From positions 137,721 to 179,813 of the forward strand of contig JAQTMH010000001.1 of NCBI GenBank assembly GCA_028714495.1: a stretch of 42,093 nucleotides of DNA. The letters are read 5' to 3'. This stretch comes from Patescibacteria group bacterium (GTDB taxonomy: Bacteria > Patescibacteriota > Patescibacteriia > JAHIZJ01). Positions 25,961 to 40,358 of this stretch are shown here, one piece after another (position 1 is the first letter of the stretch; each line of letters begins with the position of its first letter). The position numbers and the translations under genes were made by a program. The notes beneath the pieces are model-generated. The model saw nothing but the letters and a program-made list of their open reading frames with translations. It was not told the origin of the DNA and did not search any database.

Positions 25961-26045
25961 TTAAATAATTCACCTTTTAGTTAAAAGGTGTTTTTGGAAA
26001 AAATACATTCTTGCTTAGTTAAAATAAATTACCTATAATTCTTCT

Positions 26046-26639
26046 ATGACCAAGCCAAGGCTTTTCCTTCACGCCTGCTGCGCGCCCTGCGCCTGCTACC
26101 CAGTTGAATTGCTTAGAGGTGAATACGACATCACCCTGTTTTTTTATAATCCTAACATTTATCCTGAAGAGGAATTCAATAAACGCTTAGAGGAAATCAA
26201 GCTTTTCTGCAGGCGAACTTGGCCAAGTTCGCCTACGAATCATTTGATTGTCGGTGAATACGACAGCCGACACTGGTTTGAGCTTGTAAAAGGACTCGAA
26301 AATGAACCCGAGCGCGGCCGGCGGTGTGACATCTGCTATGAAATGCGCCTGCGGAAAACCGCCCAGCAGGCTAAAGCCGAAAGTTATGATTATTTTGGAA
26401 CTGATCTAAGCATCAGCCCGCACAAAAAAGCTGATAAAATCAATGAGCTTGGCCGACAGCTTGAAAAAGAGTTTAGTATCAAATACTTCGAAGCTGATTT
26501 TAAAAAGAAAGACGGATTCAAAAAGAGTCTGGAAATCAGCCACCAACATAATTTCTACCGTCAGAATTACTGCGGCTGCGTGTTCTCGAGAGCGGGGCGG
26601 GAGGTAAAGAAGTGTCAGCACACCACGACTATTTCTTGA
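26046..26639 (+). CDS. queH: Epoxyqueuosine reductase QueH
   Basis: LHACCAPCACYPVELL, FYNPNIYPEEEF, ERGRRCDICYEMRL, SISPHKKA, YRQNYCGCVFS. Confidence 0.92.
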   Translation: MTKPRLFLHACCAPCACYPVELLRGEYDITLFFYNPNIYPEEEFNKRLEEIKLFCRRTWPSSPTNHLIVGEYDSRHWFELVKGLENEPERGRRCDICYEMRLRKTAQQAKAESYDYFGTDLSISPHKKADKINELGRQLEKEFSIKYFEADFKKKDGFKKSLEISHQHNFYRQNYCGCVFSRAGREVKKCQHTTTIS

Positions 26640-27471: not shown

Positions 27472-28557
27472 ATGAAATTATCCCTGTTTAATTATTACCT
27501 ACCTAAAGATTTCATTGCCCAGAAACCTGTCCGGCCGCGCGACCATTCGCGGCTTTTGGTATTAAACCGCCAAACCGGGAAAATCGAGCATCGCCATTTT
27601 TACAATATCGCGGAATATTTAAAACCCGGCGACGTGCTTGTTCTCAATAATTCAAAGGTGTTTCCGGCCCGGTTAATCGGCCGAAAACCAACCGGTGGGA
27701 AAATCGAAGTGTTTTTGTTGCACCAAGAGAATTCAAACACATGGTCGTGCCTCCTGGGCGGAAAAGGCCGGCGGGTGGGGTTACATATTACCGTAGGCGA
27801 AAATGGCCATTCTCGCCTCCAAGAAAATTTCGAAAGCGGGCAAACGTTTGCCCGCCTGCGTGGTACGATAACCAAACATCTTCCCGACGGCACTTGGCAC
27901 ATTCGTTTCAACCACTCCGGCCAAAAACTCCAATCTCTAATTAACCGACTTGGCCAGGCCCCCACCCCGCCTTATATCAAACGCGCCTCAAATTTAACCG
28001 AGTACCAGACAGTCTACGCCCAAAAAACTGGGTCTGTCGCCGCTCCGACCGCCGGTTTTCATTTTACGAAAAACCTTCTTAACCTTTTAGTTAAAAGGTT
28101 AACGATTGAATATATCACCCTCCATGTCGGCTACGGAACGTTTCAACCGGTAAAATCGACCGAAATTGAAAAACACAAAATGCACCCGGAATTTATTGAA
28201 GTGGACAAGGCAACTCATCAACGGCTGCTTCAAGCTAAAAAATCTGGCCGGCGGATTATCGCGGTCGGCACCACCAGTGTGCGAGCACTGGAAAGTCTAT
28301 CTCAAATCCCCCAATCAACAAACAAACCTCAGCCAAAGACTGATCCGCCTCGGGCGGAAATCAACCTTTTTATTTATCCCGGTTACAAATTCAAAATGGT
28401 TGATGCGATGATAACTAACTTTCACCTGCCCAAATCAACTCTCTTGATGCTTGTCTCGGCTTTTGCCGGCCGTACAAAAATTCTAAAGGCATATAAAACA
28501 GCGATAAGAAATAAATACCGGTTTTACTCTTTTGGGGATTCGATGTTGATATCATGA
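27472..28557 (+). CDS. queA: S-adenosylmethionine:tRNA ribosyltransferase-isomerase QueA
   Basis: FNYYLPKDFIAQKPVRPRDHSRLLVL, PTPPYIKR, TVYAQKTGSVAAPTAGFHFT, LFIYPGYKFKMVDAMITNFHLPKSTLLMLVSAF. Confidence 0.95.
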   Translation: MKLSLFNYYLPKDFIAQKPVRPRDHSRLLVLNRQTGKIEHRHFYNIAEYLKPGDVLVLNNSKVFPARLIGRKPTGGKIEVFLLHQENSNTWSCLLGGKGRRVGLHITVGENGHSRLQENFESGQTFARLRGTITKHLPDGTWHIRFNHSGQKLQSLINRLGQAPTPPYIKRASNLTEYQTVYAQKTGSVAAPTAGFHFTKNLLNLLVKRLTIEYITLHVGYGTFQPVKSTEIEKHKMHPEFIEVDKATHQRLLQAKKSGRRIIAVGTTSVRALESLSQIPQSTNKPQPKTDPPRAEINLFIYPGYKFKMVDAMITNFHLPKSTLLMLVSAFAGRTKILKAYKTAIRNKYRFYSFGDSMLIS

Positions 28558-40104: not shown

Positions 40105-40358
40105 ATGAGGGTGATTCTAAGTGGAAATATAAGCAATAATATTTGTCCGATTGAGACGCGAGCAATCCATGACTAAACGTAAGTGAGGTTGGCTAACCTC
40201 GCCTGCTGATTTGTAATGTCAAATACTCAAAATACGATCGCATTGATCCTATAAAATATACTATTCTTGACAAAAAACATCATATTTATTAAGATGCTCC
40301 CATCGTGTTCTTTGAAGTAGTTAGTGGCAATATGGTCTTTTCACGAAAGGAGTCGAGA

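Follow-up and report, generated by a model that had tools for sequence, protein, structure and literature searches.

A perfect palindrome in frame within queH of a Patescibacteria group bacterium is very probably a copy of a GTAG-footed REP element

How does a long, perfect palindrome come to lie in the middle of an intact enzyme gene? The question is raised by queH (epoxyqueuosine reductase) of a Patescibacteria group bacterium, which occupies positions 26046-26639 on the plus strand of the window, that is, the whole stretch of 42,093 nucleotides analysed here (C1:137721-179813 of a draft genome of 1,165,373 bp in 6 contigs). The 197-aa product of this intact open reading frame matches PF02677 (E 3.7e-66) and has the solved QueH 7lc5 as a homologue (E 1.7e-31). 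Within the frame, AGGCGAACTTGGCCAAGTTCGCCT constitutes a perfect zero-loop palindrome of 24 bp (26211-26234), as the initial annotation had pointed out; of the peptide RRTWPSSPT that it assigned to the palindrome, RRTWPSSP is indeed encoded there, while the final T lies one residue beyond. As RNA, the stretch is predicted to form a 10-bp hairpin (-16.3 kcal/mol, z -3.5).

We asked whether the palindrome coincides with additional protein sequence. From R47 up to Y72, the QueH of the window counts 25 residues versus 20 or 21 in 83 of the 88 other aligned QueH proteins; compared with its nearest homologues (L034, L035, and L042, at about 49-55% identity), it has four extra residues at the palindrome site. 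The initial annotation had put this interval at about 5 residues shorter in most of the family, and the alignment bears this out: relatives are shorter by 4-5 residues exactly at the palindrome, whose residues they do not share. Likewise, the gaps in the alignment with 7lc5 coincide with the palindrome site. In an AlphaFold2 model of QueH (mean pLDDT 89; 96 for residues 51-60 and 94 for residues 61-70), residues 56-63 end the helix spanning 41-58 and form the following turn, before the next strand, and they are distant in sequence from the invariant cysteines. Two clostridial (Oscillospiraceae) QueH proteins reach 24 residues over the same interval in the absence of the AGGCGAACTTGGCCAAGTTCGCCT palindrome, which indicates that the turn tolerates changes in length by itself.

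The net gain at the QueH site amounts to 12-15 bp, less than the 24-30 bp of the hairpin, suggesting that host sequence was partly lost or recruited. The gene is thus longer, as one would expect of an insertion, but the difference does not correspond to 24 bp being added neatly to a gene that otherwise stayed the same. Searches for a nearer comparison covered several levels: the genus of this genome contains no second genome, queH is absent from both further genomes of the family, a scan of genome contigs for a nearer queH returned nothing above 51% identity, and the empty-site orthologues that were found all had about 55% protein identity or less. Because both same-family genomes are devoid of queH, the insertion in this gene is deduced from distant homologues.

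Chance is readily dismissed as the origin of the palindrome. The genome contains 27 zero-loop perfect palindromes of at least 24 bp versus 0.07 expected by calculation for 1,165,373 bp, and three third-order Markov genomes yielded no perfect palindrome longer than 20 bp. The queH sequence AGGCGAACTTGGCCAAGTTCGCCT itself occurs exactly once in the whole genome, where no other match with up to 3 mismatches was found either, and an exact search of viral contigs gave no match. Many of the long palindromes, though, share a common arm, AGGCGA...TCGCCT, and a genome-wide search for related palindromes returned about 30 copies of a GTAG-footed hairpin, several of them in frame within other genes. The consensus of this family reads 5'-CGTAGGCGARNWTGNNCAWNYTCGCCT(A/G)C-3', also written (C)GTAGGCGARNWTGNNCAWNYTCGCCT(AC or GC) from the permissive scan, whose list of 39 entries includes some chance matches, such that about 30 were taken as members. 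Arms and centre vary among the copies, with changes compensated across both arms.

The GTAG foot is common to the family and present in most copies, several of which lack one foot; many combine a GTAG end with a CTAC end (e.g., C3:55484 and C2:205853). On the minus strand, the queH copy likewise ends in GTAG (26236-26233, CTAC on the plus strand), as seen in the sequence and the family alignment, whereas its opposite foot (26209-26212) reads GCAG. With a core of 24 bp, compared with 28-30 bp for other copies with their feet, it falls within the size of the hairpin-forming GTAG REPs (20-40 bp). Family copies occur singly or in clusters (C2:200316-200494 and C2:205853-205959), and some intergenic ones lie near gene ends. 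The window itself harbours two intergenic relatives, the palindrome AAGCAGGCGAGCGTTAACGCTCGCCTGCTT of a close sub-family (1970-1999), identified by palindrome scans and family alignment, and a degenerate copy, (cgt)AAGTGAGGTTGGCTAACCTCGCCT, at 40181-40204 on the plus strand, identified by family alignment.

These dispersed copies bear directly on a local explanation, in which a polymerase switched templates within queH and copied 12 bases in reverse, with no mobile element involved. Such an event would account for the perfect symmetry around a zero-length loop and for the 12 bp (4 residues) gained over L034, L035, and L042, which is exactly one arm. The arm and the GTAG/CTAC foot, however, are common to about 30 genomic sites and recur in other bacterial families, a pattern beyond the reach of any local event. 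Since the arm is a dispersed repeat, we strongly disfavour local inverted duplication and consider it very unlikely; at most, such a duplication might have perfected the symmetry of a copy that had already been inserted.

To see how far the family extends, we ran its pattern against 381 genomes of the class, a large one whose genomes span 0.5-1.7 Mb, using the reversed pattern as a control. Fourteen matches were obtained in the genome under study, 8 and 4 in its two relatives from the same family, and 8 and 11 (one family), 10, 5, and 3 in four other families; elsewhere there was at most one match per genome, and the reversed control gave 0 in all genomes bearing the family. The repeat is hence present in this genome and seven sampled relatives, from five families in all, with a patchy distribution. 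Arm sequences differ between genomes; in one of them (G199), each listed copy is AGGCGACATTGGCCAATGTCGCCT.

This recurrence speaks to two further alternatives. A draft genome in 6 contigs might well contain assembly errors, for which palindromes are typical sites, but the family recurs in frame in genes of other genomes from several families, and we give an assembly artefact next to no credence. A regulatory alternative, in which selection at each locus conserved a double-stranded binding site or an RNA control element that overlaps the queH codons by chance, would fit a dispersed family with a strong RNA hairpin and some intergenic copies by gene ends, possibly terminators. It fits poorly with arms and centre that are free to vary as long as pairing is maintained, with copies deep inside unrelated housekeeping genes and inside the transposase genes described below, and with the patchy distribution among related genomes. 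We therefore regard such an element as very unlikely, and there is no need to invoke a regulatory role of the mRNA hairpin to explain the queH sequence.

Some family hairpins extend their symmetry 6 to 21 bp past the 24-bp core into flanks that differ between loci, far above chance (L203 1991-2056 and L201 2000-2043). Others of this kind are found at L198 2014-2051, L199 2057-2094, L194 2024-2059, and L191 1966-2001. In G114, a family copy with symmetric flanks far beyond the feet forms a palindrome of 66 bp. Such symmetry might stem from insertion at a pre-existing (terminator) hairpin or from flanks being copied in mirror image.

Copies also lie inside other genes. One example is found close by in the window, in queA (27472-28557, plus strand; 361 aa, TIGR00113), where the family scan and QueA comparison revealed a copy, (CCGT)AGGCGAAAATGGCCATTCTCGCCT, at 27795-27818 (plus strand) encoding VGENGHSRL. 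Together with the variant copy AAGCGGGCAAACGTTTGCCCGCCT (27834-27857, perfect at 27836-27855), it forms a dimer whose members are 15 bp apart, and both fall within an insertion of roughly 20 residues relative to most QueA proteins. The queA of the related genome G001 has a single family member at the same place; that of G002 has no palindrome there, yet equals G001 in length. Another example is Elp3 (TIGR01211), which in the genome under study contains an in-frame member at a site that is empty and about 6 residues shorter in both G001 and G002. Among the relatives, the QueH of G326 bears two palindromic inserts of +7 and +13 residues, and that of G304 contains two hairpins within an insert of 20 residues, in each case at sites different from that in the QueH of the window. 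In-frame copies were also seen in SecA (three), LigA, MurE, AlaS, and ComEC of G326 and in QueG of G014. For two seemingly intragenic candidates, C1:326097 (TsaD) and L190, the likely true start codon is further downstream, and they were excluded from the insertions.

The reading frames of about 20 copies in convincing genes are far from evenly used: about 16 are read as xGE-x-x-x-x-RL and 4, including queH, as RRxWPxSP, with none in the third frame. Under equal frames, the probability of 16 in 20 is about 2.5e-5, a value that ignores relatedness among the copies in transposase genes. The third frame is presumably counterselected because the GTAG foot there reads as a TAG stop, along with a hydrophobic peptide.

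As a side observation, intragenic copies appear frequent in genes of tRNA wobble modification (queH, queA, and elp3 in the genome under study, queA in G001, queG in G014, and queH in G326 and G304), in a sample that is small and partly biased by the choice of searches. The genome under study additionally contains a degraded, partial second elp3 with stop codons near the intact gene (C4:67395-67772, minus strand).

If the queH palindrome belongs to a REP-type family, a REP-associated tyrosine transposase (RAYT) would be expected in the genome. What is known of the recognition comes from TnpA_REP of other bacteria, by which REP hairpins are recognised and cut as single strands, aided by GTAG (PMC8266576). 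The genome does encode Y1/HuH proteins. Three of these were scanned against NF047646, the REP-associated tyrosine transposase model, two scoring above its equivalog cut-off and one just below, and a genome-wide scan gave four matches above the cut-off. Across the class, RAYT matches were obtained in 206 of 381 genomes (85 over the cut-off), and RAYTs are thus far commoner than this repeat family. In the genome under study (G000) as well as in G001, G002, G055, G199, and G326, RAYTs carry the hairpin in frame between the HuH and W/Tyr motifs. Among 30 RAYT loci that were fetched, 11 had an internal hairpin in the HuH-Tyr linker and 2 had one elsewhere. The presence of a hairpin within a RAYT gene was dropped as a novelty, having already been reported (PMC6006769). 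An independent system in G307 has a different arm sequence inside its own RAYT, near the RAYT, and in 16 dispersed copies; its repeat was found in neither of two genomes of the same family.

The foot and the transposase also separate the queH element from the Rickettsia palindromic elements to which the initial annotation had likened it. A true Rickettsia element, or a direct relative that arrived by horizontal transfer, would behave much as seen here, as a short in-frame palindrome in functional genes. Its foot, though, should be CGTC rather than GTAG; moreover, the RAYTs carry the hairpin, and the arms are peculiar to this group (judging the Rickettsia elements by their published description). 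We hold such an origin to be extremely unlikely. The analogy thus stands for behaviour and fails for membership: the queH element acts like a Rickettsia palindromic element but by its foot is not one.

Collectively, the dispersed family, the hairpin in the RAYT genes, and a QueH that is longer exactly at the palindrome support the insertion proposed in the initial annotation, as do the family copies in other genes. We consider it very probable that the queH palindrome is a copy of this genome's GTAG-footed REP which entered queH and was kept since it left the frame open at a tolerant site. We class the element provisionally among the 'double-foot' GTAG REPs associated with RAYT subclass 2.4 (PMC6006769; PMC3733652), the subclass being judged by motifs and anatomy rather than by a tree. 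Points that count against such a REP having entered queH are the net gain of 12-15 bp, the GCAG foot, and the equal QueA length of G001 with and G002 without the palindrome.

With regard to mechanism, a RAYT (HuH/Y1) may move or copy the element as folded single-stranded DNA, upon which selection would remove those insertions that break genes or bring in an in-frame stop. About 9-15 bp of the target would have been lost at or after insertion, and in QueH the insert would probably be neutral. A more far-reaching proposal, which we regard as unlikely, holds that genes rather than intergenic space are a main REP habitat in these streamlined bacteria, and that the elements serve as protein modules, selected for frame and used recurrently (xGE-x-x-x-x-RL or RRxWPxSP), which repeatedly enter one functional class, notably the tRNA wobble-modification enzymes QueH, QueA, QueG, and Elp3. 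Alternatively, or in addition, insertion in this proposal replaces or mirrors the target, so that the symmetry of the flanks is extended by up to 21 bp.

Known systems offer close parallels to the GTAG REP that we propose for queH. REPs of RAYT subclass 2.4 can be double-footed (GTAG...CTAC) and occur in frame within the RAYT gene, generally between the HuH and Tyr motifs (PMC6006769). The family described here agrees in the 5' GTAG and 3' CTAC feet of many copies, in G-C pairing at the stem base, and in the in-frame location within the RAYT, with the motifs of the G001 protein (NHIH, WQ, and YIKNNP) matching as well. It differs in its hosts, small genomes of a different, Patescibacteria-like class as opposed to mainly Cyanobacteria and Bacteroidetes, and in that several copies are one-footed. 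GTAG and CGTC REPs have both been defined and both found inside genes (PMC3733652). Intragenic GTAG REPs such as those of Opitutus terrae resemble ours in location and translation: single elements or dimers form part of the reading frame of housekeeping genes, at times with two per gene, and often in enzymes related to DNA or tRNA. The hosts are different, however, and the net gain in queH is smaller than the element; 24 GTAG families have been published.

The Rickettsia elements RPE-4, RPE-6, and RPE-1 share the in-frame palindromic insertion in functional genes that is also seen in queH. RPE-4 and RPE-6, however, are CGTC elements, a class of repeats that lacks linked transposase genes, as opposed to the GTAG foot of queH, and RPE-1 is longer (PMC3733652). 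Classical REPs and REPINs of E. coli and Pseudomonas have the GTAG foot, hairpin, dimers, and linked RAYT in common with the present family; in contrast, they are much more abundant and mostly intergenic. Our literature search on the Patescibacteria and the candidate phyla radiation yielded no relevant paper dealing with REPs or RAYTs; the phenomenon is known in other bacteria, with no description of it in this group in the literature searched.

What these copies illustrate is a REP/RAYT system that spreads into coding sequence even though genomes of such small size would be expected to purge repeats of this kind. The essential proteins SecA, AlaS, LigA, and MurE evidently tolerate inserts, and QueH has been struck independently at different sites in several lineages. 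The set of copies therefore offers a natural means of testing at which positions proteins put up with a short foreign peptide. For annotation, it serves as a warning that, in genomes like these, an insert of 5-20 residues confined to one lineage may represent mobile-type DNA.

Other palindromes accompany the GTAG-footed family. A second family is represented in the window by ACCTTTTAGTTAAAAGGT, once just upstream of queH (25972-25989) and once inside queA (28082-28099), where palindrome scans and QueA comparison revealed no net lengthening. Exact copies of ACCTTTTANNTAAAAGGT number 10 in the genome under study, with a control of 0, and the genome copies outside the window lie at C1:6162, C1:30001, C2:13527, C2:31727, C2:41887, C2:42256, C3:72212, and C3:95422. 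A third family in the same genome, GCTATCATGCTATATAGCATGATAGC, maps to C1:47286, C1:49547, C2:218086, and C3:14890, and its copies flank another RAYT gene (C1:47448-47849) on both sides; this arrangement looks like a classical REPtron.

Other palindromes also occur in queuosine genes of the sample. The queA of G070 (L217) contains, at nt 262 of the match, an in-frame perfect palindrome of 40 bp with an unrelated arm sequence, CAGACATCCGATGTCGGGAGCTCCCGACATCGGATGTCTG. Two genomes of family f91 have other palindromes in QueH, one with the palindrome CGGGACGCT.AGCGTCCCG (L173 1410-1428) and the other with the hairpins GGCAAGGTC and GGTCAGGTC (L174 1414-1473), which suggests that this family has more REP families.
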